This document shows positions 4,751 to 27,996 of a stretch of 39,912 nt of DNA, piece after piece. The notes beneath the pieces are model-generated. The model saw only the letters and a program-made list of their open reading frames with translations. It did no database searches and was not told where the DNA came from. The stretch comes from Desulfuromonas sp. TF (GTDB lineage: Bacteria > Desulfobacterota > Desulfuromonadia > Desulfuromonadales > ATBO01): assembly GCF_000472285.1 (NCBI RefSeq), contig NZ_KI421427.1:4806-44717 (forward strand), given 5' to 3'. Each line of letters opens with the position of its first letter. Within the stretch, counting starts at the first letter, position 1. The position numbers were made by a program, and so were the translations under genes.

Positions 4751-5407
4751 ATGCTGACCATCGAACTGGAAGGGCGGAAAATCAAGGTTCCCGAGGGCTT
4801 GACGGTGATCGAGGCGCTCTGGGATACGGGGCATGACGTGAAGCGGGGGATCGGTTGCCTGTCGGGTCTGTGCGGCGCCTGCACGGTCGCCTACCTGGAG
4901 GCCGGGGCGCAGCGGGTCAGGTTCGGGCTGGGCTGCCAGACGGTGGTCGCCGAGGGGATGAACGTCATCATGCTCCCCTACTTCCCGTCCCGAATGGCGC
5001 GCTACGACATGGAGAGGATGACCAATCCGTTGCAGGAGCTGGCCGGTCACTATCCGGAGCTGACGGCCTGCAACGACTGCAAGGCGTGCAATATCTGTCC
5101 GGAATGGATCGACGTGGCTGGCTTCGTAAAAACCGCCAAGGAAGGAGGGTATGAATCGACCGCCGACAGGGTCATGGACTGTCACATGTGCGGCCTCTGC
5201 GCCTCCAGGTGTCCGAAAAGCATCGCACCCCAGTACGTCGGCCTCTACATCCAGCGCTCCTGCGCCCGCCAGCGGCCGCTGCCGCCCAATCTCGCCAAAC
5301 GCCTGGAGCAGATGGCCGCGCTGCCCGCGGACCGCGAATTCACGCAAGTCGCGGCGCTGAACCGGGCCGGGCTCGAGGCCTATTGCCGCAAGATTCTCGA
5401 CTCTTGA
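4751..5407 (+). CDS. Fumarate-reductase-like iron-sulfur subunit (2Fe-2S plus two 4Fe-4S sites)
   Basis: 218 residues. The N-terminal ~85 form a plant-type ferredoxin domain with Cys36, Cys41, Cys44 and Cys62. The C-terminal part has Cys107, 110, 113 and 116 (CxxCxxCxxCP) and Cys144, 147, 150 and 154 (CxxCxxCxxxCP), as in SdhB/FrdB and related proteins. The first of these quartets is one residue shorter than the standard bacterial spacing. It would pass electrons between the flavoprotein encoded 13 bp downstream and the membrane subunit after that. The start ATG has GAGAGGAGG about five bases upstream. It is the first gene of a three-gene operon. The physiological substrate of the complex is not shown by the sequence. 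Confidence 0.85.
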   Translation: MLTIELEGRKIKVPEGLTVIEALWDTGHDVKRGIGCLSGLCGACTVAYLEAGAQRVRFGLGCQTVVAEGMNVIMLPYFPSRMARYDMERMTNPLQELAGHYPELTACNDCKACNICPEWIDVAGFVKTAKEGGYESTADRVMDCHMCGLCASRCPKSIAPQYVGLYIQRSCARQRPLPPNLAKRLEQMAALPADREFTQVAALNRAGLEAYCRKILDS

Positions 5408-5420
5408 AGGAGGGGCTCCC

Positions 5421-7016
5421 ATGTATCCTGCCGATCTGTTGAAGTCTCTGGAGCTGGTGCATTCCACCCGGCAGCGGCGTAGGGCCGAGAGTTTGCCCCG
5501 GCTTGAGGAGCAGCAACGCGACCATCTGCTGAAAACCTATCATCCCGATTACAAGGATGCCGCTTTCCGAAACTTGAGGGTGGGAGCCAACAAGGGCGAC
5601 CGGGTGACCCATGAATTGGCCGACCTGCTGGAGTCCTTCAGCGACCTGGATCATGCCCGGATCAATCTTGAGCCGGAATTCACGACCGACGTGCTGGTGC
5701 TGGGAGGCGGCGGGGCCGGAGTCACCGCCGCGCTGTTTGCCGAAAGCCTGGGGGCAAGGGTTCTGCTGGCCACCAAACTGCGTCTGGGCAATTCCAACAC
5801 CATCATGGCCCTGGGAGGGATGCAGGCTTCGGTGGCGGAAGAGGATTCCCCCCTCAGGCATTTTGCCGACACCATGGTCGCCGGCGGCTTTGCCGGCAAG
5901 GCGCCCCTGGTCAAAGCCCTGGTGGAGGACGGTCCTCACATCGTCAAGTGGCTGCTCGACATCGGCGTCAACTTCGACCGTGACGCCCTGGGGAACCTGG
6001 CGACGAAAAAGGCCGGTGGACTCTCCGCACCCAGGATTCTGTCCATCGGCGACCATACCGGATTGAACATCATGAAGGTGTTGAAGGATGAGATGCGCAA
6101 GAGCGGCCGCATCGAAATCCTGGAATTCTCCCCGGCGGTGGAACTGACCACCGATGCGGCCGGGGCCTGCAACGGCGCCATCCTCTACGACCTGGGGCGG
6201 CGGCGCCATCTGGCGGTTCAGGCCAGAGCGGTCATTCTCGCCACCGGAGGGGCCGGGCGCCTGCACAACCAGGGCTTCCCCACCTCCAACAATTTCGGCG
6301 CCACCGGCGATGCGGTCGTCCTCGCCTACCGTGCCGGCGCCGGCATCGAGGGGATGGACTCCTTCCAGTACCATCCGACCGGGGTGATGTTCCCCGATCA
6401 TATGGTCGGGGTGCTGGTCACCGAGGCCATCCGCAGCCTGGGGGCCCACCTGGTCAACGCCGAGGGACGACGCTTCGTCAACGAGCTGGAAACCCGCGAT
6501 CTCGTCGCCGCGGCCATCATCCGCGAGGTCGAGGGGGGCCGGGGAGTCCGCACCCCTTCCGGCAAGGTCGGAGTCTGGCTGGATATCCCGGTATTGGAAG
6601 AGCTGCTGGAGAAGGGGATGCTGAAGAAACGCTTTCCCTCCCTTTTCAAACAGTTCAGACGGGTCCGAATCGATATCACCCGGCGGCCGCTGCTGATCTA
6701 CCCCACCCTGCATTACCAGAACGGCGGCATCCTCATCGACGAGCAGAGCGAATCGACGGTGAACAACCTCTTTGTCGCCGGGGAGGCGGCCGGCGGCATC
6801 CACGGCCGCAACCGGGCCATGGGGAACTCGCTGCTGGATATCTTCGTGTTTGGCCGCCGGGCCGGATTGGCTGCGGCGGAGCGACGCGGCGCCGTGCCCG
6901 GGCCGGTCACCCTGAACCATCTCACCCGGTATTACGACCGGCTGAAATCGCTGAGAATTTCCAGCGTGGCCAAATCCCCCACACTGTTTCCGGAGTTCAT
7001 CGTCGATAAACTCTGA
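5421..7016 (+). CDS. FAD-binding fumarate reductase/succinate dehydrogenase-like flavoprotein
   Basis: 531 residues of the SdhA/FrdA/NadB superfamily. The FAD site VLVLGGGGAGVTAALFAESLGA starts near residue 93 and the second FAD motif is near the C-terminus (NNLFVAGEAAGGIHG, GNSLLDIFVFGRRAG). Substrate-site elements of fumarate reductases are present: QYHPTGV, ETRDLVAAAI (catalytic Arg) and HYQNGG. Where FrdA/SdhA have the His that binds FAD covalently, this protein has Ser-Asn126-Thr, as in L-aspartate oxidase and soluble fumarate reductases, so FAD is probably non-covalent and the reductive direction is favoured. Residues 1-90 form a helical extension. GGAGG precedes the ATG. It likely acts on an enoate or a related dicarboxylate; the exact substrate is unknown. 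Confidence 0.85.
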   Translation: MYPADLLKSLELVHSTRQRRRAESLPRLEEQQRDHLLKTYHPDYKDAAFRNLRVGANKGDRVTHELADLLESFSDLDHARINLEPEFTTDVLVLGGGGAGVTAALFAESLGARVLLATKLRLGNSNTIMALGGMQASVAEEDSPLRHFADTMVAGGFAGKAPLVKALVEDGPHIVKWLLDIGVNFDRDALGNLATKKAGGLSAPRILSIGDHTGLNIMKVLKDEMRKSGRIEILEFSPAVELTTDAAGACNGAILYDLGRRRHLAVQARAVILATGGAGRLHNQGFPTSNNFGATGDAVVLAYRAGAGIEGMDSFQYHPTGVMFPDHMVGVLVTEAIRSLGAHLVNAEGRRFVNELETRDLVAAAIIREVEGGRGVRTPSGKVGVWLDIPVLEELLEKGMLKKRFPSLFKQFRRVRIDITRRPLLIYPTLHYQNGGILIDEQSESTVNNLFVAGEAAGGIHGRNRAMGNSLLDIFVFGRRAGLAAAERRGAVPGPVTLNHLTRYYDRLKSLRISSVAKSPTLFPEFIVDKL

Positions 7017-7056
7017 GAGTCGCGGCAGTTGGCCAGCCCGGGCAACGATTGAGAGT

Positions 7057-8763
7057 GTGAAGGCGATGCAGGTTATCGGAGAGCGAAAATCTGAGCTTCG
7101 CCACTTCCTCAAAGGACTGTACGAAGTCCTGTTCGTGGGAGGAGCGGCCTTTTATGCCTGGATGATCGGGTTGACCTGCCTGGCTCTCCTCGGCCTGGCG
7201 ACCTATGGCGCCCAGCTGCTGCACGGAATGGCCCTCACCCACATGAGCGACCATGTTTCCTGGGGGTTCTATATTTCCAACTTCACGTTTCTGGTCGGGG
7301 TGGCGGCCGCCGCGGTCCTGCTGGTGATCCCCGCCTACCTCTACCATTTCAAGGCGATCAAGAAGATCGTCGCCTTCGGGGAACTGCTCGCCGTCACCGC
7401 CGTCATCATGGCGATAATGTTCGTCCTGGTCGATGTCGGACGTCCTGACCGGCTCTGGCACCTGCTGCCGGGGCTGGGGCGGATGAACTTTCCCTCCTCG
7501 GTTCTGGCCTGGGACATCCTGGTGCTCAACGGCTACCTGCTGCTCAACCTGACGGTGGCAAGCTATATAGGCGGCTGCACCTATTTTGGCCGGGAGCCCG
7601 ACAAGCGCATCGTGATCCCGTTGATCCTGCTCTCCATCCCCTGGGCCATCGGCATTCACACCGTCACGGCCTTCCTCTACAACGGCCTTCCGGCCCGCCC
7701 TTTCTGGAACGCCTCTATTCTTGCGCCGCGCTTTCTCGCTTCGGCCTTTTGCGCCGGGCCGGCCCTGATGATCATCATCTTCCAGGTCCTGCGCAGGGTC
7801 ATGGATTTCCAGGTGCGCGACCGGGCGATTTTCAAACTGGCGGAGATCATCGCCTATGCCATGGCGATCAACCTCTTCCTGATGTTTGCGGAGATTTTCA
7901 AGGAATACTACTCGAACACGGCTCATCTGGCGCCGATGCGGTACCTGTATCAGGGGTACCACGGTTATTCCAGGCTGACCCCCTGGATCTGGACGGCGAT
8001 GACCTTCAATACCGTCGGCTTCCTGCTGTTTCTGTTGCCGCGGACCCGGGAGAGACTCCTGACCCTGAATATCGGCTGCGGGCTGATTTTCATCGGCATC
8101 TGGATCGAAAAGGGGATGGGGCTGATCGTACCCGGCTTCATTCCCGACACCCTCCATGAAATCCATGAATACATGCCTTCCCTGCAGGAGGTCATGATCG
8201 GCCTGGGGATCTGGGCGTTTGGCGGGCTGCTCTATACCCTGGCGGTGCGCACGGTGATTGCCCTGGATACCGGCCGCCTGCGGCATCCGGAAGCCCCTCC
8301 GCTGGCTCTGGACAGCGATGCGGAAGGCCCTCTCGCCCGGGACATCATGACCCGAGCGGTGAAGTCAATCGCTCCGGCCGCCCCGGTGGAGGAAGTGCGG
8401 CGACTCATGAGCGCAAGCGGCATCAGCGGATTTCCGGTCGTCGATGAACAGAACCGCGTTCTCGGGGTCGTCTCCGAGTCGGACATCATCCTCTACGAAA
8501 TCAACCCACAGCCCCACCTGGTCGCCAGGCTGAAACAGGTGATCCTGCCGAGGTCCGGGGCATCCCAAAGCCCGGGAGGGACGGCCGCGGACATCATGAG
8601 CTCCCCCGCCATCACCGCCCGGGACAATGCCCCCCTGCGGGAGCTCTCCCAGGAGCTGCTGGAAAAAAAGATCAAGCGCATCATTATCGTCGATCAGAAC
8701 CGGCATCCGGTAGGCGTGGTTTCCCGGATCGACATCGTCAAGGCTTTCGAGCGTCTTGGTTAG
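7057..8763 (+). CDS. NrfD/PsrC-type quinone-linked membrane subunit fused to a CBS domain pair
   Basis: 568 residues. Residues ~20-415 hold nine or ten hydrophobic segments with NrfD-family landmarks (VSWGFYISNFTFLVGVA, VDVGRPDRLWHLL, SSVLAWDILVLNGYLLLN). This is the type of subunit that exchanges electrons with menaquinone without haem. Residues ~430-568 are a tandem CBS module: DIMTRAVKSIAP...GFPVVDEQNRVLGVVSESDII and IMSSPAITARDN...IIIVDQNRHPVGVVSRIDI. CBS pairs bind adenine nucleotides in many proteins, so this tail may sense energy charge. The GTG at 7057 is used; an ATG three codons later (7066) is equally possible because the ribosome site is weak. It is the last gene of the operon and presumably the membrane anchor for the two preceding subunits. 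Confidence 0.85.
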   Translation: MKAMQVIGERKSELRHFLKGLYEVLFVGGAAFYAWMIGLTCLALLGLATYGAQLLHGMALTHMSDHVSWGFYISNFTFLVGVAAAAVLLVIPAYLYHFKAIKKIVAFGELLAVTAVIMAIMFVLVDVGRPDRLWHLLPGLGRMNFPSSVLAWDILVLNGYLLLNLTVASYIGGCTYFGREPDKRIVIPLILLSIPWAIGIHTVTAFLYNGLPARPFWNASILAPRFLASAFCAGPALMIIIFQVLRRVMDFQVRDRAIFKLAEIIAYAMAINLFLMFAEIFKEYYSNTAHLAPMRYLYQGYHGYSRLTPWIWTAMTFNTVGFLLFLLPRTRERLLTLNIGCGLIFIGIWIEKGMGLIVPGFIPDTLHEIHEYMPSLQEVMIGLGIWAFGGLLYTLAVRTVIALDTGRLRHPEAPPLALDSDAEGPLARDIMTRAVKSIAPAAPVEEVRRLMSASGISGFPVVDEQNRVLGVVSESDIILYEINPQPHLVARLKQVILPRSGASQSPGGTAADIMSSPAITARDNAPLRELSQELLEKKIKRIIIVDQNRHPVGVVSRIDIVKAFERLG

Positions 8764-8980: not shown

Positions 8981-9805
8981 TTGAAGATGACAAAGAGTGT
9001 GTCCCAGAAACCCGCTAAAGACGAGGACAGGTACAATATTCGGGCGATCGAAAGAGCTCTCTCGGTGCTCGATATCTTCTCCCGCGAGCGCAGAACACTC
9101 TCCCTCGATGAGCTCACCAAGGCCTCCGGTCTCTCCAAACCCACCCTCTTCCGCATTCTCTCCACCCTGCAAAGCCAAAAGTACGTCATCCAGGACAAGA
9201 ATGACGGACGCTACCGGCTCGGCTCGGTCTTCCTCGGACTTGCCTCTTCGGCGCTCGGCGCATCGGCACTCGGATCGCTCGACCTCGGGACGATAACCCG
9301 CCCCCACCTCATCGAGCTGCGCAACAGGGCTCAGGCCACGGTGCTCCTCGGCACCCTGATGGAAGACCTTCTCGTCTACCTCGACAAGCGCGAAGGGGAA
9401 GGGCCCGTGAGGCTCGCCGCCGACATCGGCTGGCGTCGGGACCCCCCCAACTACGGCATGCTTGGAATGACCCTCATGGCCCACCTTGAACCCTCCGAAC
9501 AGGAGCGTCTTCTGCGGGAGGCCCCTCTGCATGCCTACACGCGGAAATCCGTGACCGACCCCGCCCTCTTCAGCCGGAAGCTGCTCGAGATACGCGATCG
9601 CGGTCACGTGGTGGAGTTCGAAGAGGCGATAGAGGGTGTGTGGGGGGTCGCCGCCCCGGTGTGGAACTCTGCCCGCGAAGTGGTCGCAGCCGTCGGCGCG
9701 GCGCTGCCCATGACGGTGAAGAGCGAAGAGCGCATCGCCGAGACGATACGTCTCGTAAAGACGTGCGCCAAGGAAATCTCCTCCGATCTCGGCCATAGGG
9801 GATAG
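8981..9805 (+). CDS. IclR-family transcriptional regulator
   Basis: 274 residues. The N-terminal winged helix-turn-helix (residues ~18-85) reads AIERALSVLDIFSRERRTLSLDEL, then the recognition helix region GLSKPTLFRILSTLQSQKYV and the wing DGRYRLGSVFLGL. The C-terminal effector domain (~95-265) includes HLIELRNRAQATVLLG, GMLGMTLMAHL and the closing GVWGVAAPVWNSAREVVAAVGAALP typical of IclR ligand domains. IclR proteins often control aromatic-acid catabolism, and this one lies directly upstream of a bamB/bamC-like operon. The start is a TTG with AGGAAGGG seven bases upstream; an ATG two codons later is the alternative. Matching palindromes before it and before the next operon suggest autoregulation and local control. 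Confidence 0.9.
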   Translation: MKMTKSVSQKPAKDEDRYNIRAIERALSVLDIFSRERRTLSLDELTKASGLSKPTLFRILSTLQSQKYVIQDKNDGRYRLGSVFLGLASSALGASALGSLDLGTITRPHLIELRNRAQATVLLGTLMEDLLVYLDKREGEGPVRLAADIGWRRDPPNYGMLGMTLMAHLEPSEQERLLREAPLHAYTRKSVTDPALFSRKLLEIRDRGHVVEFEEAIEGVWGVAAPVWNSAREVVAAVGAALPMTVKSEERIAETIRLVKTCAKEISSDLGHRG

Positions 9806-9993: not shown

Positions 9994-10020
9994 ATGAAAT
10001 GCTATTTCATGGTATGAAAT
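9994..10020. promoter_or_regulatory. Candidate IclR operator of the bamB-like operon
   Basis: ATGAAAT-GCT-ATTTCAT at 9994-10010 is a perfect 7+3+7 palindrome. A further half site ATGAAAT follows at 10014-10020. It overlaps the predicted start of transcription and shares 15 consecutive bases with the site upstream of iclR. Confidence 0.65.
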
Positions 10021-10093
10021 AAAGAACAGGGAAAGCAAAAAACGAAGCATGCAACTGGAGCACGGATCCAGGCACACGGGGAGAGAAGGACCT

Positions 10094-12091
10094 ATGAGGT
10101 ACGCAGAGACAGGGTTCAATCTGGAAGTTGACCTCACCAGAGGAAACATTGAGAGATTAAGAACCGATCCGGAACTGACCGCCCTTCATCTCGGGGGGAA
10201 TGGTACCGCCGCGGAGATCCTGTGGGACAGGGTTCCTCCCGAGGTGGAACCCTTTTCTCCCGACAATCTCCTCATCTTCAGCGCCGGTCTTTTGGATGCC
10301 ACCCCTGTTCCAGGCGCTAACCGCACCTGTATCAGCAGCATCAGTCCCCAGTCCAACCTTTATGTCAATTCAGGATTCGAGGGTTTCTTCGGGCCGGAGA
10401 TGAAACACGCCGGGTACGACAAGATCGTCATTCGCGGCAAGTCCCCCGGCCTGGTTTATCTGTGGATACACGATGACAAGGTGGAAATACGGGACGCCGG
10501 CCATCTCCAGGGGAAAAGCCCGCACGAAACCGCGGCCCTCATCCAGCAGGAGCTGAAGGACCCCAAGGTCCAGGTGGCCGCCATCGGCGTCGCCGGAGAA
10601 AACAAGGTCTACCAGGCCAGCATCGAACATGCGAACTCCAGCGCCTCTCGGGGGGTTGGCGTGATCATGGGGGATAAAGGACTGAAGGCGATCGCCGTCC
10701 GTGGAACAAAGGACATCCAGGTTGCGCGACCTGCCGAGCTTTTTCAGATATGCATCCCACGATATCGTGAAATTTACGACAACCCGTCCTGCGGGGATCT
10801 TTTTTTGAACAAAGAGGACGATTCCTGGCACGTCAATCATCTCCCCTGGAGCAATGCGAGCAAGCGTGAAAAAGGTTATTGGCTTGAAGACATGGAAAAA
10901 GAGTGGGAGGTGCGTGTTGAAAGCGAGCGTATTACCACTCAGTGGGAAAATTACAGCCAGGAACTCGAAGAGATCCGGGAGACGGTCGTTGATAAAAGCG
11001 AGCTTCTTCGAGGAACGGGTTGCTATAACTGCCCGAAGGAGTGCCATCGGTCGTTTTACCTGCCTGGCGGCCGCAAATATTTCCTGAAAAGCTACGGCAA
11101 GCTCGCCTATGCGATGTCGGCCTACGAAGATCTGAAATTCAATTACGACCTCCTTGCCGCCATGCAGGAGTACGGACTGGACGAATCCTCGATGCCGCAA
11201 GTTCTCACCTTCGCCCTTGAACTTTTCGAATCCGGCATCTTGACCGACGAGGACCTGCCGGAATTTCCAACCGATGGCGAGGACAGATTCCTCTACCTCC
11301 TTGAGAAGGTCGCACGGCGGGAGGGGGTCGGGGATGCGTTGGCCAGTGGCCTGTATCTGGCCGCCCGTCAGATAGGCAAGGGCGCGGAAGCATACGATCG
11401 CACCACAAAAAGAATCGAGCAGCTGCCTCTCAAGCGGGAGATGCCCAATTACTCTTATTTCCTCATGCATGCCACCGGCGGGACGATGGACATCACCCAG
11501 GTCGAGGGTTCCTTTCCCCAGATGCCCATTCCTGACAGGAAGGAGAGAGAAGAATTCGTAAGGAATTGGGATGCGGCTCCGGAAAAATTCAAGAAATGGT
11601 TTCTGGAATGGGAACCGGGTCAACCCCTCGCTGTTGAAGCGGCTGCCGAAATCGCTGACTGGAACGGGGCCATGCATGACGCGGATGACGCCCTGGGGAT
11701 GTGCTCCCTTCTGTCGTCGTTCCGGGGGCAGTTCGGCGGAAGGCCCCCCTATCACCTTCACAACCTGCCAAAGCTCATCTGGCTGGCCACCGGAATGGAC
11801 CTGGATTCGGACGGGCTGTTGAGAATAGCCCGAAGGAACCGGCAGCTGGTCAGAGCCATCAATGTCAGAAGAGGGCTGAGGAGACGGGATGAGAACCTGT
11901 CGGAAGACCTCTGGCCGGACAGGGACCCCGCGATGGAGCAGAAGTACCTTGAAGCATTCTATGAATTCCAGGGCTGGACGCGGGAGGGCATTCCGACCGG
12001 AGAGACGCTGGACGGACTGGGTCTGGATTACGTCCGCGAAGACCTCGTGAAGAGGGGAATTTTGACCGACAACGAAGAGGTAAAAAAATGA
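10094..12091 (+). CDS. BamB-like tungsten-dependent aryl-CoA reductase subunit (AOR superfamily), copy 1
   Basis: 665 residues of the aldehyde:ferredoxin oxidoreductase superfamily, most like BamB of class II benzoyl-CoA reductase, which dearomatises benzoyl-CoA at a tungsten-bis-metallopterin. It starts MRYAETGFNLEVDLTRG and has LHLGGNGTAAEILWDRVPPEV and MKHAGYDKIVIRGKSPGLVY. The 4Fe-4S ligands are Cys310, Cys313 and Cys317 (CYNCPKEC), with Cys537 (LGMC) in the position of the fourth AOR ligand. Compared with copy 2 it has about 25 extra residues just before Cys310. The start at 10094 matches the start of copy 2 and has GAGAAGG upstream; an ATG at 10049 is in frame but poorly supported. It overlaps the next gene by 4 bp. 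The substrate could be an aromatic CoA ester other than benzoyl-CoA. Confidence 0.85.
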   Translation: MRYAETGFNLEVDLTRGNIERLRTDPELTALHLGGNGTAAEILWDRVPPEVEPFSPDNLLIFSAGLLDATPVPGANRTCISSISPQSNLYVNSGFEGFFGPEMKHAGYDKIVIRGKSPGLVYLWIHDDKVEIRDAGHLQGKSPHETAALIQQELKDPKVQVAAIGVAGENKVYQASIEHANSSASRGVGVIMGDKGLKAIAVRGTKDIQVARPAELFQICIPRYREIYDNPSCGDLFLNKEDDSWHVNHLPWSNASKREKGYWLEDMEKEWEVRVESERITTQWENYSQELEEIRETVVDKSELLRGTGCYNCPKECHRSFYLPGGRKYFLKSYGKLAYAMSAYEDLKFNYDLLAAMQEYGLDESSMPQVLTFALELFESGILTDEDLPEFPTDGEDRFLYLLEKVARREGVGDALASGLYLAARQIGKGAEAYDRTTKRIEQLPLKREMPNYSYFLMHATGGTMDITQVEGSFPQMPIPDRKEREEFVRNWDAAPEKFKKWFLEWEPGQPLAVEAAAEIADWNGAMHDADDALGMCSLLSSFRGQFGGRPPYHLHNLPKLIWLATGMDLDSDGLLRIARRNRQLVRAINVRRGLRRRDENLSEDLWPDRDPAMEQKYLEAFYEFQGWTREGIPTGETLDGLGLDYVREDLVKRGILTDNEEVKK

Positions 12092-14037
12092 GGTACGCAG
12101 AGACCGGGATTAATTTGGAAATCGATCTCTCCCAGGGAACCGTCGAGAGGGTAAAAACCGATCCGAGGCTGACCGAACTTCATCTGGGGGGACAGGGCAC
12201 TGCCGCAAAGATCCTCTGGGACAGGGTTCCGCCCGAAGTCGACCCTTTTTCTCCCGAAAACCTCCTCATCTTCAGCACCGGCCTTTTTCACGGCACGCCC
12301 GTCCCCGGCGCCAATCGAACCTCCGTCAGCACCTTTTCCCCCCTGACGAACCTGTATGTCAATTCATTGATGGGAGGATGGCTGGGGCCGGAACTGAAAC
12401 ATGCCGGTTACGACAAGATCGTCATCCGGGGCCAGGCCTCCGGCCTGGTGTATTTATTTATACACAATGACAAAGTCGAAATCCGCGACGCCAGCCATCT
12501 CAGGGGAAAAGGGTGCCAGGAAACCGCGGAGCTTCTTCGCCAGGAGCTGAAGGACCCCCGGGTCCAGGTTGCCGCCATCGGCCTGGCCGGTGAAAACCGG
12601 GTCTATCAGGCGACCATCGAGCATGCCAACTCCAGCGCTTCCCGGCATGGAGTCGGCGCGGTCATGGGGGCCAAGGGGCTGAAGGCGATCGCGGTTCGAG
12701 GAACCCGGGACATCCATGTCGCCCGACCGGCCGAGCTGTGGGAGCTGTGCAAAAACCACTATAAGGAGATTCACGACAACAAAAATTGCGGCGACCCCAT
12801 GGCGCACGATCATAATGAAGGTTTCCATGTCGACAACTTTGCCTGGGGAAATGCGCGTACCCGGAGGAAGGGCTACTGGAATAAAGAACGTGAAGCGAAA
12901 TGGGTTGAAAAGTGGAAAGAGGTGCGGACCCGGGACTCGGGCTGCTACAACTGTCCGAAGGACTGCCATTATACGATTGCCTACCCCGGGCGTCAGAAAT
13001 ACTTCCTGAAATGCTTCAACAAGCTGACCTACTGCATGGCGGCCTATCAGGAAATCGACTTCAACTATAACATCCTCGGACTTACGAGCGCCTACGGATT
13101 GGACGGTTTCTCGACCCCTCAAGTCCTCGCCTTCGCCGTCGAGCTCTATGAAGCCGGCATCCTGACCGACGACGACCTGCCGGGGTTCCCCTCCGACGGT
13201 GCCGAGAGATTCTTCTACCTTCTCGAAAAAATCGTTCGCCGGGAAGGAATTGGAGACGTATTGGCCAACGGTGTCTACCAGGCAGCCCGTCAGATCGGCA
13301 AGGGCGCGGAAGAATTCGATCACAACACCACGAAAAAAGTCGAGCAGGTGCCTCTGAAGCTGGGAGTCATAAATTACCCCTTCTACCTGATGTACTGCAC
13401 CGGTGAAAAGATGAATATCACCCAGATTGAAGGGTCCTTTCCCCAGGCGCCCATTGCAGATTTGGAGAAGAGGAAAAACTTTGTAGAGAACTGGGATGCA
13501 GCGCCTGAAAAATTCAAGAAATGGTTCATGGAATGGGAACCCCGTGAACATATGCCGATCGAAGCGTCGGTCAATGTCTGTGACTGGAACGAGGCCATGC
13601 ATTACGTCGATGACGCCATCGGGACCTGTGCCTGGCTGTCGTCATTCAGAGGGCAATTTGGCGGGTCGCCTCCCTATCACCTTTTTAATCTGCCAAAATT
13701 CATAACGCTGGCGACCGGGATAGAACTCGACTCGGACGGACTATTGGAAATAGCCCGAAGAAACCGGCAGCTGGTGAGAGCCATCAATGTAAGACGAGGC
13801 TTAAGAAGAGTTGAAGAAAAACCGCCGGAAAATCACTGGAAGATTCGCGACCCCGAGATGGAACAGAAGCATCTTGACGCCTATTATGAATTCAAGGGTT
13901 GGTCCAGGGATGGAATACCCGCTAAACAGACGTTGGACAGCTTGGGTCTGGATTACGTGAGCGAAGACTTCATAAAGAGGGGGATCTGGACGGATGAAGA
14001 AGCCCCTCTCCTGCAAGAGACTTCGGCGGGAAAATAA
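12088..14037 (+). CDS. BamB-like tungsten-dependent aryl-CoA reductase subunit (AOR superfamily), copy 2
   Basis: 649 residues, clearly paralogous to the preceding gene (MRYAETGINLEIDLSQG) and joined to it by an ATGA stop-start overlap, so the two are translationally coupled. The cluster ligands are Cys286, Cys289 and Cys293 (CYNCPKDC), with Cys514 (IGTC) as the fourth. This copy looks closer to characterised BamB than copy 1: it lacks the insertion before the Cys motif and keeps MYCTGEKMNITQIEGSFPQ, FHVDNFAWGNARTRRKGYW and LVRAINVRRGLRRVEEKPP. It would bind the ferredoxin-like BamC homologue encoded next. Whether the two copies form one hetero-oligomer or serve two substrates cannot be told. 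Cytoplasmic and oxygen-sensitive by family analogy. Confidence 0.85.
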   Translation: MRYAETGINLEIDLSQGTVERVKTDPRLTELHLGGQGTAAKILWDRVPPEVDPFSPENLLIFSTGLFHGTPVPGANRTSVSTFSPLTNLYVNSLMGGWLGPELKHAGYDKIVIRGQASGLVYLFIHNDKVEIRDASHLRGKGCQETAELLRQELKDPRVQVAAIGLAGENRVYQATIEHANSSASRHGVGAVMGAKGLKAIAVRGTRDIHVARPAELWELCKNHYKEIHDNKNCGDPMAHDHNEGFHVDNFAWGNARTRRKGYWNKEREAKWVEKWKEVRTRDSGCYNCPKDCHYTIAYPGRQKYFLKCFNKLTYCMAAYQEIDFNYNILGLTSAYGLDGFSTPQVLAFAVELYEAGILTDDDLPGFPSDGAERFFYLLEKIVRREGIGDVLANGVYQAARQIGKGAEEFDHNTTKKVEQVPLKLGVINYPFYLMYCTGEKMNITQIEGSFPQAPIADLEKRKNFVENWDAAPEKFKKWFMEWEPREHMPIEASVNVCDWNEAMHYVDDAIGTCAWLSSFRGQFGGSPPYHLFNLPKFITLATGIELDSDGLLEIARRNRQLVRAINVRRGLRRVEEKPPENHWKIRDPEMEQKHLDAYYEFKGWSRDGIPAKQTLDSLGLDYVSEDFIKRGIWTDEEAPLLQETSAGK

Positions 14038-14064
14038 GAAAACCAGAGATAGGAGGTGGTACCC

Positions 14065-14622
14065 GTGAGCGATCGGTTGAATACGAAGACAGTTAAAGAA
14101 ATAAAGGTCAATCTTGACAAATGCATCGGTTGTCGAGCCTGCGAACTGGCCTGTTCCGCCCATCACGCCAAGCCGAAATACAGCAGCATCAACCCGGAAA
14201 GGTCCCGGATCCGGGTGGTTATGGACTTGCTGAATGATGTGTACGTTCCGATACGGGCCGGAGATTACACGCCGGCCGAATGCAGCGGCCGACATTCGTA
14301 TACGATCAACGGCAAGGAATACACCCAGTGCAGCTTCTGCAGCGTTTCCTGCCCGGCGCGTGACTTGTTCAAGGAGCCCGATTCGGGGATACCGCTCAAA
14401 TGCGATATGTGCGAGGACGACCCGACGCTCACGGAGCCCTTATGCGTCCAGGTCTGCCGCTGTGGGGCCCTGACCTACGCCGAGTGGGAAGAAGAGGTCG
14501 AAGACGTGCCAACAGCAAAGCAGTGCGAGATGGAAATCGGCCTGGAATCGCTGATCACCAGATTTGGTCAAGAAAAGGTGGCTGATGCCTTTGCGCAGAG
14601 ATTCAAAAACTCGAAACGGTAG
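14065..14622 (+). CDS. BamC-like ferredoxin subunit (multiple 4Fe-4S)
   Basis: 185 residues of the HycB/DmsB-like polyferredoxin family, closely resembling BamC, the electron-transfer partner of BamB. Cys motifs in order: CIGCRACELAC with the typical following HHAKPKYSS, then CSFCSVSCPARDLFKEP, and CDMCEDD...CVQVCRCGALTY. This suggests three 4Fe-4S clusters. The true start is the GTG at 14065, eight bases after a perfect AGGAGG at 14051-14056; an in-frame GTG at 14056 overlaps that ribosome site and is rejected. It follows copy 2 by 27 bp and completes a bamB-bamB-bamC unit. The other usual partners (BamD-I) are absent here, so its electron donor must be encoded elsewhere or be the Fe-S/flavin complex upstream. 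Confidence 0.85.
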   Translation: MSDRLNTKTVKEIKVNLDKCIGCRACELACSAHHAKPKYSSINPERSRIRVVMDLLNDVYVPIRAGDYTPAECSGRHSYTINGKEYTQCSFCSVSCPARDLFKEPDSGIPLKCDMCEDDPTLTEPLCVQVCRCGALTYAEWEEEVEDVPTAKQCEMEIGLESLITRFGQEKVADAFAQRFKNSKR

Positions 14623-14630
14623 GTGATGTT

Positions 14631-14671
14631 GTGGTAGAGTGGTTCACCCTTCCGGGGTAAAACGATACCAC
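14631..14671 (+). repeat. Intergenic hairpin after the bamC-like gene
   Basis: GTGGTA at 14631-14636 pairs with TACCAC at 14666-14671, with an inner ACCC/GGGT stem. There is no T-run, so it is not a standard terminator. It may weaken read-through into the MFS gene or protect the 3' end of the message. Confidence 0.3.
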
Positions 14672-14692
14672 GAAAAAGGTGAAAGGCTCTGC

Positions 14693-16141
14693 ATGGCTCC
14701 AAACCAGGAGAAGGCGGCGATCTCCCGAACGGCCGTCCTGTTCGTCGTCTGCACCGCGCATTTCCTCATGCCGTTCATGATGTCCGCGGTCGGCATTGCC
14801 CTGCCTTCCATCGGGCGGGAGTTCGGCGCCAGCGCCATGCAGCTGGGGCTGGTGGTGACGTCGTACGTGCTGTCGGCCTCCATCTTCCTGCTGGCCATGG
14901 GACGCCTGGCCGACCTGTACGGCCGCCGGCGCATCTTCCAGACCGGCATCGCCGTCTTCACCATAGCCGGCGGCCTCATCTCCCAGGCCTGGTCCATCGA
15001 ATCCGTGATCGCTCTGCGCTTTATGCAGGGGATGGGCGGGTCGATGGTGATGGCCACGACCGTCGCCATCGTCGTTTCCATCTTCCCGCCGCGGGAGAGA
15101 GGAAAAGCGCTGGGGATCTCCGTCGCCAGCGTCTACGCCGGCATCTCCTGCGGGCCGTTCATCGGCGGCGCACTGGTGGCCGCTCTCGGCTGGCGCTCCC
15201 TCTTCTACCTGTGCGTTCCCCTGGGGGCGGCAGTCTTTTTCATCAGCCGCGCCAAAATCCGAGACGAATGGGCGGAAGCGAAGGGGGAGCCCTTCGACTG
15301 GCTTGGGAGCCTGCTCTACGCCGGCGCCATCCTCCTCCTGATCAGCGGCGCCTCCAATCTCGACCGCGGGGTCTGGGCCGGGGTCCTGCTGGCTGGCGGG
15401 CTGGTCGGGATTTTCCTATTTCTCGCGGTGGAAGCGAGGACGAGATATCCCATCCTCGACATCGCCCTGCTGCGGAGCAACAAAGTTTTCGCGTTCAGCA
15501 ACCTGGCCGCTCTGCTGAACTACGCCGCCACCTTCGGGGTGACCTTCTTTCTCAGCCTTTATCTGCAATACGTCAAGGGGATGAGCCCATCGGCCGCGGG
15601 CAGCGTCCTCATCATCCAGCCGGTCGCCCAGACCCTGCTCTCCCCGGCCTGCGGCCGGCTGGCCGACCGCTTTCCAGCGGCCCGGGTGGCGACCGTGGGC
15701 ATGACCCTGTGCGCCATCGGCCTCGGCCTTGCCACCGGCATTTCCGAAACCACCCCCCTGAGCGTGATCATGGCCATCCTGGCCTTTCTCGGCATGGGCT
15801 TCGCCCTGTTTTCCTCCCCCAACACCAGCGTCATCATGGGCAGCGTCGAACCCCGCCAACTGGGGGTCGCCTCCGGACTCAACTCCACCATGCGAACCCT
15901 GGGCATGCTGAGCAGCATGACCATCATCACTGTCATCTTTTCCTTCCTCATGGGCGGCCACGCGGTAACCACCGCCACTCTCCCCGCCTTTCTCCAGAGC
16001 ATGCACGCCGCCCTGCTGGCTTTCTGCGCCCTGTGCGTCCTGGGGATCTTCTGCTCCTTCGGCCGCCTGCGGGAGAAGGCGACAGACGCCCCGGAGGAAA
16101 CGGTCCAGGTCCCCGCAGAAAGTCCGAATGTCGAACCCTGA
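14693..16141 (+). CDS. MFS transporter of the DHA2 (14-segment) type
   Basis: 482 residues with about 14 hydrophobic segments. MFS motif A appears as GRLADLYGRRR near residue 75, and motif C-like RFMQGMGGSMVMATTVAIVVS and GISVASVYAGISCGPFIGGALV follow, as in EmrB/QacA-type proton-driven exporters. The start ATG at 14693 is preferred because GAAAGG lies seven bases upstream and the upstream in-frame stretch is not membrane-like. Being 70 bp after the bamC-like gene on the same strand suggests co-transcription and a role in moving an aromatic acid or a toxic intermediate; this is inference. The family mostly exports drugs and amphipathic compounds. The C-terminal ~30 residues are soluble. Confidence 0.85.
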   Translation: MAPNQEKAAISRTAVLFVVCTAHFLMPFMMSAVGIALPSIGREFGASAMQLGLVVTSYVLSASIFLLAMGRLADLYGRRRIFQTGIAVFTIAGGLISQAWSIESVIALRFMQGMGGSMVMATTVAIVVSIFPPRERGKALGISVASVYAGISCGPFIGGALVAALGWRSLFYLCVPLGAAVFFISRAKIRDEWAEAKGEPFDWLGSLLYAGAILLLISGASNLDRGVWAGVLLAGGLVGIFLFLAVEARTRYPILDIALLRSNKVFAFSNLAALLNYAATFGVTFFLSLYLQYVKGMSPSAAGSVLIIQPVAQTLLSPACGRLADRFPAARVATVGMTLCAIGLGLATGISETTPLSVIMAILAFLGMGFALFSSPNTSVIMGSVEPRQLGVASGLNSTMRTLGMLSSMTIITVIFSFLMGGHAVTTATLPAFLQSMHAALLAFCALCVLGIFCSFGRLREKATDAPEETVQVPAESPNVEP

Positions 16142-16279: not shown

Positions 16280-19200
16280 CTATCGGAGCACCCGCATGGC
16301 CACCAGGGAGACATCGTCGTTAAAGGCCTTTGTTCCGGTAAACAGCCTGACCCGGGACAACAGGGTATCGATAATCTCCTGCGGTGAAAGGTCATGGTGC
16401 TCTTCAAGCACCTCAGCCAGCCGGCTTTCTCCAAAAAAAGAACCCTCGCTGTTTTCGGCCTCGATGATCCCATCGGTGTAAAGCAACAGAAGATCCCCGG
16501 GGTGCAACTGCACCCATCTCTCCTCAAAGTCGACCCGAGGCAAGATCCCGAAAATAAGACCTTCAGCGTCCAGGAATTCCAGGCTCCGGGATTGGGCTCT
16601 CCAGATCAAGGGAGGATTGTGCCCGGCATTGGCAAAGGAAAGTTTCCGGATTTCGGTATGGTACTTCAGATAAAACATGGTAATGAAAAGTTCGGCGCGG
16701 GTCAGATCCTCGTAGAGGAAGGAATTCAGGGCGGCGGCTGTTTCGGCTGCGCTGTGAAAGCTTTCCAGCCGAGCGTGAATGAAGGTTCGGGTTTCGGTCA
16801 TGATGAGGGATGCCCCGACATTGTGTCCGGATACATCGGCGATCACCATATCCAGAGACCCGTCGCTTCGGGGGAGAAAGTCATAGTAATCCCCTCCGAC
16901 CTCTTTGGCCGGAACACAGATTCCCGCCAGGGATATCCCTTCTATTTCCGGTACGGTTGAAGGCAAAAGGCCGCTCTGGATGATCCTTGCAATCTCCAGT
17001 TCCCGCTCTTTTTCCCTGGCTTCGATAAGTCTCTCAGTCTGGCTGGCGTTGCGCCAGGCGACGCCGACCTGGCCTGCCATGCTTTGGAAAAGCTCTATGA
17101 ACTCTTCGGAAAAAATCCCTTTGGCGGACCGGGAGAAAGCCGAAAGCACTCCTACCGGGTCTCCTTCGATGGTGATGGGAGCGTGGGCGAATGCCTTTAT
17201 TCCTTCGCGGTGGACGAGCATAGCCGGGACGGGTTTCTCCATGAAATCGGTATCGTTGACCACAATGACCGAATTCATCAGAAACGCCTCTCCTACGTAG
17301 GAATCCCTATTCAGCTGCCGGTCGGACTCACCGAGGTGCTCTGAACTCATTCCCTTTTGACTTCTCACCGCCAGGACCCCTCGCTCCTGATCCAGCATCC
17401 GTATGACGCAGAGGTCGAGCTTGAACTGCTGGCGGAAGAGATGCAGGATATTGTCCAGAATGCTTTGCAGTTCGGCCCTGCCCGCCACCATGCGGGTGAT
17501 TTCATGCAGCACCCCCAGTTGCTCCCGGCCGGCTTTGCGGCTGATGGTGACGGAGCCGAAAATGTCAAAGACATCCTCCATTTTGCTCCCCCGGGTGGCG
17601 AGGTAGTTATCGACGATGATACGAGCCGGAGCCGCGCCGACCGAGCCGGCCAGAGTTTTTTCGGTAAAGCGCTTAAGGTCGGGAAGTTGGAATTCCGACA
17701 GGCTTCCCCGCTCATCGATTTCGGCATCGCCGAGATACTCTGCAATGGCTGCACGGGCCTGTTTTTCCCCGATGAATTTGGCCATGAGCTCGACAAACTC
17801 CATAACGGTCAGCGTCTTGCTGATCCTCTGGAGGTGCGGGGTTTCCTGCCGGGGGACGAAAATATCAACAAACTTGTCTGCCTGCTCCTTTTCCGCTGCC
17901 TCTGCACCGGTGAAAACGGAGAGAATCGAAAAAGCGCCGATGTTGAAGAGAAGGGTCCAGAACAACGAATGGGTCCACATATCGAAACCGTCCAGGCCGA
18001 ACAATGCCAGGGGTCGGAGCAGTTCCAGCCCGAAAGGACCATGCGCCAGGATATCGTCGGGCATCCACCCGGTGCGTACAAAGGAGGGGATGAGCAGGGT
18101 ATAAAACCAGACCACGAAGCCGAGGATCAGCCCCATGACAGCCCCCCGGCGGTTGGCCCTCTTCCAGTAAAGGCCGCCGATAAATGAGGGAGCGAACTGG
18201 GTTACGGCTACAAAGGAAGCGAGACCGATATTTATCAGCGCATAGGTTTCACCGAAAAACCGGTAGTAAAAAAAGCCCAGAAAAACGACCACCACGATCC
18301 CAAGGCGCTTGATGTTGATGAGGATTCCCGAAAGGTCTTTTGCCCCTGTTTTCAGTTTCAGGATAAGCGGCATGACCAGGTGATTGAGGATCATGTTGGA
18401 AAGGGCCACGGAAGAAACCATCACCATCCCCGCCGAAGCCGAGAATCCGCCGATGAAAATCAACATGGCCAGGACGGGATGCCCGGTTTCGAGAGGGATG
18501 AGGAGGATAAAGTAATCGGCGTAAGTGGTATCGCCCCCGTGGAGGAGGAGACCGCCCAGCGCGACGGGGATGATGAACAGGTTGATCAGAAACATGTAGG
18601 CCGGGAATCTCCACATGGCATCGATGATGTGTTCCTCCCGGGTGTTCTCGGTGACCATGATGTGGAACTGACGGGGAAGAAGCATGACACCCATCATGGA
18701 GGTGAAGGAGAGGGTGAACCAGGTTGCGTAGTGAGTCGGTTCGGTGCCGAGCCTCAGCAAATGGGTCCGATCGGGAAACACGGCGACAAAGCGGGAGAAG
18801 ATGTCGGCGGGGCCGTCGAAGAGCCCGAAGGTGACGAAAAGTCCTGCGGCGAACATGGCCGTGAGCTTCACCATGGACTCCACCGCGATTGCAGCCACCA
18901 GCCCTTCGTGGCGCTCGGAGGCATCCAGATGCCTGGCGCCGTAGAGCACCCCGAAAAGTCCAAGAAATAGGGCGACGACGATTCCCGTATCGAAAGAGGG
19001 TACCGGCGCCTGTAAGGCCCGGACCGGGCCGCCGGCGAGCGCCGTGGTGGAGAGCAATTCGAAAGATCGGGTAACGGCTTTGAGCTGCAGGGCGATGTAA
19101 GGGAGGGCTCCGAGCACCGAGAAGATGGTGACGATAGCCCCCAGAAGGACCGACTTGCCGTAGCGGCTGGAAATGAAGTCGGCAATGGTGACAATGTGCT

Positions 19201-19489
19201 GCTCTTTGCTGACCCGCACTATTTTGCGCAGCAGAAACCACCAGGTAAAGACCATCAGGCTGGAGCCCAGTTGAGGGGCAAGAAAGTCCAGGCCGCTGGT
19301 GGCGGCCCGCCCGACGTTGCCATAGAAGGTCCAGGCCGTGAAATAGACGGTCAGGGAAAGGGCGTAGATGTAAGAGTTCGATATGAAGCTTTGCCCTGCC
19401 TCCCGTTTTTTGTCGGCATAGAAGGCTACCGAAAACAACAGGCCAAAGTAGAGCAGCGTTATGGTGGCAATGATTGAGACCGGAATCAT
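16280..19489 (-). CDS. SSF symporter - STAC-like - GAF - PP2C/SpoIIE phosphatase fusion, copy 1
   Basis: 1069 residues. Residues ~1-530 are a sodium:solute symporter (SSF) domain with about 13 membrane segments. A linker at ~563-645 (FVELMAKFIGEKQARAAI...LAGSVGAAPARIIVDNYL) resembles the STAC domain that joins SSF transporters to histidine kinases. A GAF domain spans ~665-815. Residues ~830-1069 are an RsbU/SpoIIE-type PP2C phosphatase with all metal-binding acidic motifs (GGDYYDFLP at 865, ADVSGH with Asp885, YTDG with Asp1006, FNDD with Asp1058/1059). It probably senses a solute or its transport and dephosphorylates a serine/threonine target such as an anti-sigma antagonist. No STAS or kinase partner lies nearby. 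The start has AGGGA nine bases upstream. Unlike copy 2 it has no small membrane gene in front. Confidence 0.85.
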   Translation of the reverse strand: MIPVSIIATITLLYFGLLFSVAFYADKKREAGQSFISNSYIYALSLTVYFTAWTFYGNVGRAATSGLDFLAPQLGSSLMVFTWWFLLRKIVRVSKEQHIVTIADFISSRYGKSVLLGAIVTIFSVLGALPYIALQLKAVTRSFELLSTTALAGGPVRALQAPVPSFDTGIVVALFLGLFGVLYGARHLDASERHEGLVAAIAVESMVKLTAMFAAGLFVTFGLFDGPADIFSRFVAVFPDRTHLLRLGTEPTHYATWFTLSFTSMMGVMLLPRQFHIMVTENTREEHIIDAMWRFPAYMFLINLFIIPVALGGLLLHGGDTTYADYFILLIPLETGHPVLAMLIFIGGFSASAGMVMVSSVALSNMILNHLVMPLILKLKTGAKDLSGILINIKRLGIVVVVFLGFFYYRFFGETYALINIGLASFVAVTQFAPSFIGGLYWKRANRRGAVMGLILGFVVWFYTLLIPSFVRTGWMPDDILAHGPFGLELLRPLALFGLDGFDMWTHSLFWTLLFNIGAFSILSVFTGAEAAEKEQADKFVDIFVPRQETPHLQRISKTLTVMEFVELMAKFIGEKQARAAIAEYLGDAEIDERGSLSEFQLPDLKRFTEKTLAGSVGAAPARIIVDNYLATRGSKMEDVFDIFGSVTISRKAGREQLGVLHEITRMVAGRAELQSILDNILHLFRQQFKLDLCVIRMLDQERGVLAVRSQKGMSSEHLGESDRQLNRDSYVGEAFLMNSVIVVNDTDFMEKPVPAMLVHREGIKAFAHAPITIEGDPVGVLSAFSRSAKGIFSEEFIELFQSMAGQVGVAWRNASQTERLIEAREKERELEIARIIQSGLLPSTVPEIEGISLAGICVPAKEVGGDYYDFLPRSDGSLDMVIADVSGHNVGASLIMTETRTFIHARLESFHSAAETAAALNSFLYEDLTRAELFITMFYLKYHTEIRKLSFANAGHNPPLIWRAQSRSLEFLDAEGLIFGILPRVDFEERWVQLHPGDLLLLYTDGIIEAENSEGSFFGESRLAEVLEEHHDLSPQEIIDTLLSRVRLFTGTKAFNDDVSLVAMRVLR

Positions 19490-27100: not shown

Positions 27101-27382
27101 TTTGCTGATGCGAACCATCTTGCGCAGCAGGAACCACCCGGAGAAAAACACCAGGGTGACGCCGAGATAGATGGCGATATAGTCGATGCCGACTGTCGCC
27201 ACCCTGCCGACGTTTCCGTAAAAGGTCCAGGAGGTGAACCATACCCCGAAGGAAAGGACATAGACCGCCGGATTCGCGATGATGCTGCGACCGCGCCTGC
27301 GCCTGAAGTCGGCGTAAAACGCCACGCAAAAGAGGAGCGCCAGAAAAAGAAAGATGGCCGTGAAGACGGTTTCGACGGTCAT
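24191..27382 (-). CDS. SSF symporter - STAC-like - GAF - PP2C/SpoIIE phosphatase fusion, copy 2
   Basis: 1063 residues, co-linear over its full length with the protein at 16280-19489. It has an SSF transporter (~1-530), a STAC-like linker (FVDLMTKFIGEKRTHETI...LAGSVGAAPARIIIDNYLASKG), GAF (~660-810) and a PP2C phosphatase with intact motifs (GGDYYDFLP at 859, ADVSGH, YTDGITEAED, FKDD). The extracytoplasmic loops and transporter core differ more between the copies than the linker and phosphatase, which would fit different ligands feeding a common output. The start ATG overlaps the stop of a small membrane-protein gene (ATGA), so the two are coupled. The copies are in direct orientation ~4.7 kb apart (end to start) and could recombine. 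Confidence 0.85.
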   Translation of the reverse strand: MTVETVFTAIFLFLALLFCVAFYADFRRRRGRSIIANPAVYVLSFGVWFTSWTFYGNVGRVATVGIDYIAIYLGVTLVFFSGWFLLRKMVRISKNQNLVSIADFIASRYGNSTAIGALAALGAVAGTLPYIAVQLKGISDTFNLLIGSNQGPYAQATAPPIDSTFMVAALLCLFSILFGARRLDPSDRHEGLVAAVAFEGLLKIFVMGTVGLFFVYGLFDGFGDIFQRFLAEYPERRELLLLGTERVSYSSWFALGSVCAMAFVCLPHLFHLSVVENSKEEHIRSAMWGFPLYMFVIELFILPIALGGLILSGGDTSRAEYFPILIPLQEDHPWLALLVFLGGFSGSTGMVIVSAVALSTLILNHLLMPLFLRLRLPGEDFSGTLLNLKRLGIVVVILLAYAFYRVAGEMALVNIGIISFVGAAQFAPALLGGLFWKRANLKGAFAGLLLGLSTWFYLMVLPTMAPGSWLEGAILQNGPFGLSWLRPATLFGLEGLPWLPYVLFCTLLLNVCSFLAFSLLSEPSEAEKEQADRFVDVFAPLARPETLQRIAKAPSVVEFVDLMTKFIGEKRTHETIADFLEDQEIDARGSLSEGELSRLKRFAEKTLAGSVGAAPARIIIDNYLASKGSRMEEVFDIFGSVTISHRAGREQLGVLHEAARRVASGGDLQSILDSILELLQQQFRLDLCVIRILDEKRATLTVRSWRGVGSERLGLVDRKPSMETYVGECFINQTTVVVNDADFLDKAVSAQAVRREGIQAFTHAPIVVEGKTIGVLSAFSKSVKGIFVGEFMELFANLAGQVGVAWRNARQTERLIAARERDRELEIARDIQQGLLPTRTPDIRGISLAGTCLPAQEVGGDYYDFLPTGPDSVDLLIADVSGHTVGAAFIMTEARTFIRARAQELARPCAILSALNAFSYEDLSRAELFITMFYAKYHAPSRALFFASAGHNPPLLSRKAADTCERLDAEGLILGIKPIVDFEEKKVRLRQGDVLLFYTDGITEAEDHGGNFFGEERLCVLLREHRDLEPPQLIERLLESVRRFTGGSSFKDDLTLVAMRVEE

Positions 27383-27633: not shown

Positions 27634-27996
27634 CGGGCGCTCCTCGCGATGGGCGCATTGTCCAGGCGACGTCTCTTCCCGATAAAAAGTATACACCATG
27701 CCATCCTGCTCTCGTTATCGGCTGCAGAGTATGAAAGAGGCCATAAAAATATAAGTTCCTTCCCCTTTTATTTATATTGGTGACCAATTCCAAAAATCTG
27801 TATTATGGCCCCGGGAATTGCCCGATAAAGGCCCCCCCGGCTCAACAGGGACAATTATCCATTTCCTTCTGAGGCAAAACAGCCGGCGATCGCCAGGAGC
27901 TGGGTAAAAAGATTTTGATCAATTTCCAGGATGTGCGATCCTGACTCCATCCAAAGAACAGAATCCCAGGAAAAATTGCACCCACCCGGAGGGAAT
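27634..27996. other. 363-bp divergent intergenic region
   Basis: This AT-rich gap separates two divergent transcription units, so it should hold promoters for both. I see a perfect small palindrome TTGGTGACCAA at 27777-27787, a TATTAT that could be a + strand -10 about 18 bases after it, a minus-strand TATACT near 27690, and an inverted repeat CAGGAT/ATCCTG at 27927-27943 before the nuclease gene. No coding sequence is convincing. Confidence 0.4.

Follow-up and report, generated by a model that had tools for sequence, protein, structure and literature searches.

Introduction

The closest described system to the locus reported here is the tungsten-dependent class II benzoyl-CoA reductase of Geobacter metallireducens, which forms the 1,5-dienoyl-CoA from benzoyl-CoA and for which structures of the BamBC part have been deposited (PDB 4z3w-4z40). 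The holoenzyme has been formulated as Bam[(BC)2DEFGHI]2 (PMC11971306). A 2025 review (PMC12096430), in the part of its text available, gives Cys322 as the tungsten ligand of BamB, conserved in all predicted BamB sequences, and Glu251, His255, Glu257 and His260 as the active-site zinc ligands. The solved partial complex shows one BamB held by each BamC, with contact between the BamC subunits and none between the BamB subunits; eight 4Fe-4S clusters in a chain join both tungsten sites (PMC12096430). A 2026 classification (PMC13328260) assigns these Class IV enzymes to clades 62 and 63 of 92, the reductase of G. metallireducens falling in clade 62. Here a tandem of two BamB-like genes, termed bamB1 and bamB2 and followed by a single bamC, is described from a 39,912-nucleotide stretch of the Desulfuromonas sp. 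TF genome (the window).

Loci with more than one bamB gene have been recorded before. For Geobacter strain FRC-32 (Geotalea daltonii), a 2007 paper (PMC1924859) already shows two bamB homologues ahead of bamC-I. The bamB-bamB-bamC order is common to that strain and the window; the second FRC-32 cluster runs on to bamI, whereas no bamD-I genes follow in the window. The accessible text of that paper records the order only and makes no mention of tungsten cysteine loss, a regulator or a site. Paralogues of bamB are also reported from Desulfotomaculum gibsoniae (PMC4148979), G. metallireducens (PMC1924859) and Geobacter bemidjiensis (PMC2996986). Desulfococcus multivorans, like the window, has two BamB paralogues, which its authors speculate work jointly on benzoyl-CoA; it differs in carrying two copies each of bamB-D with bamOP in between (PMC5109826). 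The original prediction, made from the DNA of the window alone, had taken one BamB with one BamC as the known arrangement, which is incomplete in view of the bamB homologues and paralogues of FRC-32, D. multivorans and D. gibsoniae.

The bamB homologues of G. daltonii were reported in 2026 to be differently regulated by trace elements (PMC13119186); bamB1, bamB3 and bamB4, in the naming of that paper, were measured there, and the name bamB2 is absent from its main text. The accessible parts of PMC6129605, PMC13101534 and PMC11497800 contain nothing on the tandem. None of the open-licence literature consulted mentions a BamB that lacks the tungsten cysteine; most subscription papers fall outside it. 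The order of the tandem is thus already known, and the unexpected point for a specialist is the loss of the tungsten cysteine from BamB1.

Active sites of the two copies

Comparison of the site residues with those of G. metallireducens BamB, as had been proposed with the original prediction, gave a divided result. At the position of Cys322, BamB2 has cysteine (Cys309) and BamB1 has serine (Ser333), a difference that the original prediction had overlooked. The position was then read in 139 distinct BamB proteins, collapsed from the 181 BamB open frames of the loci fetched by then (frames of at least 300 residues only; three weaker frames resembling aldehyde oxidoreductases (AORs) were dropped). 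Cysteine was present in 128/128 proteins outside the BamB1 group and in 0/11 within it, where serine (7) and asparagine (4) alternate. The 4Fe-4S cysteine quartet was seen in the alignment of both copies, as had been predicted (C310/C313/C317/C537 in BamB1; C286/C289/C293/C514 in BamB2), and is retained in all 11 BamB1 proteins.

The zinc and proton site is incomplete in both copies. BamB2 retains His255, Glu257 and His260 and lacks Glu251; of the four residues, BamB1 of the window retains only His260, which is kept in nine of the 11 BamB1 proteins and is Gln in the other two. Among the 128 remaining BamB proteins His260 is the only invariant zinc ligand (128/128), Glu251 being Glu in 76, His255 His in 68 and Glu257 Glu in 99. 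Because these three positions vary, the full zinc site is less general in the BamB family than described.

The window therefore shares with G. metallireducens BamBC the large-subunit fold, the 4Fe-4S site and a BamC partner, to which BamB2 adds the tungsten cysteine and His255/Glu257/His260. It differs in having two unlike large subunits per bamC, one of them without the tungsten cysteine, in the absence of Glu251 from both, and in having no adjoining bamD-I.

Divergence and selection

BamB1 carries a segment ∼25 residues longer than its counterpart in G. metallireducens BamB (residues 273-309). It contains a conserved QWENYxQ..EE motif directly before the CxxC and has 12 positions invariant in 11/11 BamB1 proteins. 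Its model confidence is low, the predicted local distance difference test score (pLDDT) being mostly 50-80.

Rates of nonsynonymous (dN) and synonymous (dS) change were compared in nine of the 11 genomes carrying the pair, without the metagenome-assembled genome (MAG) SKS3.bin71 (G532; bamB2 cut) and Geotalea toluenoxydans (G568; bamB2 split). Mean dN was 0.239 for BamB1 vs 0.096 for BamB2 (36 pairs). Median dN/dS was 0.157 vs 0.063 (24 pairs each with dS <2), ratios that are rough since many pairs approach saturation in dS; an untrimmed upstream stretch is included in a few BamB1 rows of this set and of the 54-protein tree described below. BamB1 evolves faster, yet purifying selection acts on it and its sequence is clearly under constraint.

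The 129 other BamB sequences (the 128 above and G. metallireducens BamB) share 138 columns with conservation of at least 98%, and all ten full-length BamB1 proteins retain 91 of them. Changes in at least two BamB1 proteins affect 7/10 of these columns within residues 251-272 and 318-330 vs 24/128 elsewhere (p = 0.0012), where the active-site shell is approximated by sequence ranges that were partly chosen after the alignment had been seen. Residues 255, 257, 264, 267 and 270 are variable among BamB1 proteins.

Family placement

For both copies the best PDB match was 4z3w_A, BamB of G. metallireducens (BamB2, 845.9 bits; BamB1, 685.4 bits); the second-ranked match was an aldehyde oxidoreductase (209.3 and 201.6 bits, respectively). 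BamC matched 4z3w_E with 220.1 bits. Counted by eye, all 12 alignment cysteines were matched, the number for the three 4Fe-4S clusters of a BamC partner. Chance is excluded as an issue at these scores. AFOR_N and AFOR_C domains were found in both BamB copies with Pfam. The AlphaFold model of BamB1 (pLDDT 84, predicted template modelling score (pTM) 0.88) is weak at residues 231-340; in a structure search it was placed on 4z3w_A with Z 50.2 and a root-mean-square deviation of 1.6 over 629 residues, a match that is expected for a model built from a BamB alignment. The BamB2 model had pLDDT 86.8 and pTM 0.91.

A quick tree of 116 rows, from which BamB1 of G568 and G565 was absent, placed three AOR-like rows far outside the 113 BamB rows that contained both copies. 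A second tree of 54 proteins omitted the BamB1 of genome G566, which carries a deletion. It resolved a BamB1 clade (10 rows, 100/100) and a BamB2 clade (9 rows, 100/100) as sisters (98/91). In both trees the pair stood apart from the clade of G. metallireducens BamB and a further copy of the Desulfuromonas sp. TF genome on contig C10. The original assignment of both genes to the BamB family is thus borne out by the PDB matches and by the phylogeny, and the candidate identity of both as aldehyde-oxidising AORs was rejected on the same evidence. Because BamB1 and BamB2 are sister clades, one old tandem duplication before the spread of the host species would explain them.

Distribution of the tandem

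A search of 277 genomes of Desulfuromonadia, the class being assigned from the lineage that NCBI gives for the two named members in culture, located BamB1 orthologues with 63-72% identity in nine other genomes and a shortened BamB1 in a tenth (G566), giving 11 genomes with the pair in total. BamB2 follows BamB1 in 11/11 and is 81-86% identical in the ten others. The next gene is bamC in 10/11; in G532 the contig ends within bamB2, and a second contig runs bamB2-bamC-bamD-I.

From a phylum sample of 395 genomes 30 loci were fetched and read, one of them the window's own, and no BamB1 was present among the 29 from other genomes. A scan of 84,980 species with two short peptide patterns returned 80 of 148 relatives, in which at least seven BamB1 proteins were found, in a Desulfuromonadaceae MAG, Geobacter sp. 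UBA698, a Geobacteraceae MAG, Geobacter argillaceus ATCC BAA-1139, MAG SKS3.bin71, Geotalea toluenoxydans JCM 15764 and an uncultured Geobacter. Three further hosts (G565, G566 and G627) were found by the class search and were absent from the species-scan return; G565 is presumably Geotalea daltonii FRC-32.

The bamB-bamB-bamC order also stands beside a canonical bamBC in the Chloroflexi MAG co234_bin78 (L087:8017-12529), where the duplication is independent and both copies have the tungsten cysteine. Another bamB-bamB tandem, in L037, likewise has the cysteine in both copies.

Gene layout, regulator and predicted operator

Feature coordinates are collected in Table 1. As originally predicted, and in agreement with the open reading frames, both BamB-like genes are full length, overlap by 4 bp (ATGA) and precede a single bamC. 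The start of bamB1 was taken as 10094 because homologues begin at the corresponding MRYAETG; an in-frame ATG is present upstream at 10049. A GTG at 14065, directly after AGGAGG, is a likewise plausible start of bamC. Membership of the major facilitator superfamily (MFS) gene in the operon is unsure, since the gene is not conserved with the tandem.

Table 1. Coordinates of the tandem and adjoining features in the window
Feature	Position	Strand	Basis or remark
bamB1	10094-12091	+	ATG start, TGA stop
bamB2	12088-14037	+	ATG start, TAA stop
bamC, polyferredoxin subunit	14056-14622	+	GTG 14056 (listed) to TAG; 4z3w_E match
IclR-type regulator gene	8981-9805	+	Pfam IclR_C 102.7 bits, HTH_IclR 52.9 bits
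26-bp site TRAAAYNNNNTTTCAYNNNRTGAAAY, likely IclR operator (predicted)	9995-10020	+	three half-sites
BamB1 residues 273-309, longer segment	10910-11020	+	alignment
BamB1 Ser333 codon, place of tungsten ligand Cys322	11090-11092	+	alignment
BamB2 Cys309 codon, counterpart of Cys322	13012-13014	+	alignment
MFS transporter gene, directly 3' of bamC	14639-16141	+	MFS_1 219.8 bits

An iclR orthologue (58-74% identity) lies upstream of bamB1 in 9/10 other tandem loci; L060 (G627) has only a 25% iclR relative. The site TRAAAYNNNNTTTCAYNNNRTGAAAY was found by eye in the regions upstream of bamB1. It matched once in the window and in none of 100 shuffles, once in the whole 4.4-Mb genome (reversed control, 0), and once in each of the nine other loci with an iclR orthologue; no match was obtained in L060, the locus without one. 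The pattern was written from nine of these ten sequences (L057 was not used), which therefore match by construction. Three observations do not depend on how the pattern was made: it is unique in the genome, it matches in L057, and it is absent from L060. Regulator gene and site accompany the pair in 10/11 loci, and TRAAAYNNNNTTTCAYNNNRTGAAAY is a likely operator of the IclR protein, binding being predicted from this co-occurrence.

Location of bamD-I and other neighbouring genes

No bamD-I gene was detected in the window at an E cut-off of 1e-12. The original prediction had found none of bamD-I in view, which holds for the window and fails genome-wide: a search of other contigs, as proposed with that prediction, located a complete bamBCDEFGHI cluster on C10 (L009). 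The 4.4-Mb genome (17 contigs) encodes nine AFOR_C proteins, four of which are BamB, namely the window pair, the C10 copy and a copy on C12 with its own bamC. Subunit names in the C10 cluster were assigned from order, size and the usual arrangement of the Bam genes. No close BamD other than that of C10 is present in the genome (100% vs at most 40% for seven other matches). By inference, the tandem as a class II reductase would have to share the C10 subunits or use others.

The region 3' of bamC differs between tandem loci. Complete bamD-I is present in L058 and L062. In L055 and L059 at least bamD-G can be followed before the stretch ends, and in L054 bamD is followed by the end of the contig; L052 has bamH and bamI, L053 a canonical bamBCDE and the window the MFS gene. 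In L061 a complete canonical set lies upstream, L057 ends at bamC, and the stretch around the L060 tandem contains no bamD-I. The stand-alone bamBC pair on C12 (L010:9045-15802) has two neighbours that recur beside the bamBC of L063 with 78-82% identity; a large protein near it appears by eye to resemble the xanthine dehydrogenase/4-hydroxybenzoyl-CoA reductase family.

Genes for a flavoprotein, an NrfD-like protein and the MFS transporter in the window have no relatives in the stretches around other tandems and were rejected as conserved partners besides iclR. At 4751-8763 a 2Fe-2S/4Fe-4S protein, an FAD protein like fumarate reductase TfrA/SdhA and an NrfD membrane protein are encoded consecutively, the last of the DsrP family (417.7 bits, over the cut-off) and fused to two CBS domains. 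A 498-residue frame at 27931-29427 joins a PolI-type 5'-3' exonuclease (28-302) to RNase HI (314-455), with the RNase HI match over the NCBIfam cut-off and no polymerase match. Paralogues of ∼1065 residues each, 58% identical, are encoded at 16280-19489 and 24191-27382; the latter gave N-terminal monocarboxylate permease and C-terminal SiaA-type protein phosphatase matches, both under cut-offs.

Discussion

The interpretation we favour, with a confidence slightly above even, is that BamB2 reduces the ring and that BamB1, altered in its catalytic properties, is a partner sharing BamC, the two together making up an alternative module of a class II reductase. The operon would then produce an alternative catalytic module for a class II (tungsten) aryl-CoA reductase, switched by its dedicated IclR regulator through the predicted binding to the upstream site. 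BamB2 would be the working ring-reducing subunit, having kept the cysteine that binds tungsten, those of the 4Fe-4S site and the histidine that donates protons. BamB1 has lost the tungsten-thiolate ligand and has drifted around the active site while keeping the fold, the 4Fe-4S site and the presumed pterin anchors. Given the lost thiolate and this drift, seen in the alternation of serine and asparagine and in the variable loops, BamB1 is most likely inactive in the known reaction.

A mixed (BamB1·BamC)(BamB2·BamC) unit would probably take the place that the symmetric (BamBC)2 has on the electron-bifurcating BamDEFGHI base; in Desulfuromonas sp. TF this base would be supplied from the canonical cluster on the other contig. 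Such a unit agrees with the presence of a single bamC beside two unlike bamB genes, and a mixed pair is plausible because in the solved partial complex the BamB subunits make no contact and each is held by one BamC. BamB1 would form the second, non-reducing half, connected with BamB2 by the BamC clusters and serving as a structural partner or an electron buffer. The substrate may be another aryl-CoA, as BamB2 lacks Glu251 and does not fall in the same clade as G. metallireducens BamB.

Besides the choice of ranges noted above, several observations weigh against this interpretation. The pair has no local bamD-I in the window. In G566, BamB1 (L061:12968-14524) lacks ∼100 internal residues and the C-terminus while bamB2 and bamC are intact, which makes a strict need for BamB1 doubtful in that genome. 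In the draft genome of Geotalea toluenoxydans (L057, G568) it is bamB2 that is split over two frames. Unequal distances in G565 (L059) indicate that bamB1 and bamB2 are not always transmitted as a unit: compared with G. argillaceus, dN is 0.036 for its BamB2 and 0.225 for its BamB1, and compared with MAG R2F 0.033 and 0.236, which suggests that one gene of the pair was replaced or converted. BamB1 also retains Gly and Asp in its GLD motif and, in DDxxG, the first Asp, residues that we take to be pterin anchors as in Pyrococcus AOR. With His260 kept in 9/11 proteins, a redox-active cofactor and some chemistry in BamB1 are possible.

The retained 4Fe-4S site and presumed pterin anchors make a redox centre in BamB1 possible, and two proposals would make use of one. 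That BamB1 is a separate active tungsten enzyme, its tungsten ligated by serine or water, which catalyses another reaction either with BamC only or as one half of the complex, is unlikely. The fold and 4Fe-4S cysteines are retained, selection is purifying, the BamB1-specific insertion is conserved, and aldehyde-oxidising relatives are described as functioning without a protein ligand (PMC12096430). Position 322 is nevertheless either Ser or Asn and residues 255, 257, 264, 267 and 270 vary, a variability unlike that of an active site selected for a fixed reaction. Somewhat less likely again, a redox-active tungsten-pterin lacking the thiolate could run a different half-reaction in BamB1, for example an oxidising one, wired to BamB2 by way of the iron-sulfur clusters of BamB and BamC; if true, BamB1/BamB2 would be an asymmetric two-site tungsten enzyme feeding or gating aromatic ring reduction. 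The position of bamB1 ahead of bamB2 in one operon and the conserved extra segment would suit a factor that assembles BamB2, inserts its cofactor or regulates it and that stays outside the final complex. We consider this improbable, since a whole catalytic-subunit fold with its 4Fe-4S site exceeds the needs of a chaperone.

The two-catalytic-subunit reductase of the original prediction, in which both BamB copies would be fully catalytic on one or two aryl-CoA substrates, draws on their full length and complete 4Fe-4S quartets. It did not withstand the residue comparison and is now very improbable: BamB1 lacks, in 11/11 genomes, the cysteine found in 128/128 other BamB proteins, and its active-site loops are relaxed. 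Decay of a functionless duplicate, to which the shortened G566 copy and the faster evolution could point, is hard to reconcile with an open frame in 11/11 genomes (one shortened), dN/dS of ∼0.16, an own conserved insertion and an old duplication, and we give it very little credence. Least credible of all is membership of the pair in the aldehyde-oxidising AORs. The Pfam AFOR_N and AFOR_C domains reflect a superfamily common with BamB, whereas the top PDB match is BamB by >450 bits and both copies lie inside the BamB part of the midpoint-rooted trees.

The tungsten-bound cysteine has been taken as the signature of every BamB. BamB1 is an old, conserved branch without it that in every case found adjoins a normal BamB, in some soil and sediment bacteria. 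Counts of bamB genes would overstate the number of ring reductases. If the mixed complex is real, the tandem would encode an asymmetric benzene-ring reductase with one working half. It would then be a natural test of the thiolate ligand and of the second BamB site in a reaction at the low-potential limit of biology. Cultured relatives that carry the pair, Geobacter argillaceus, Geotalea toluenoxydans and probably Geotalea daltonii, make this testable.

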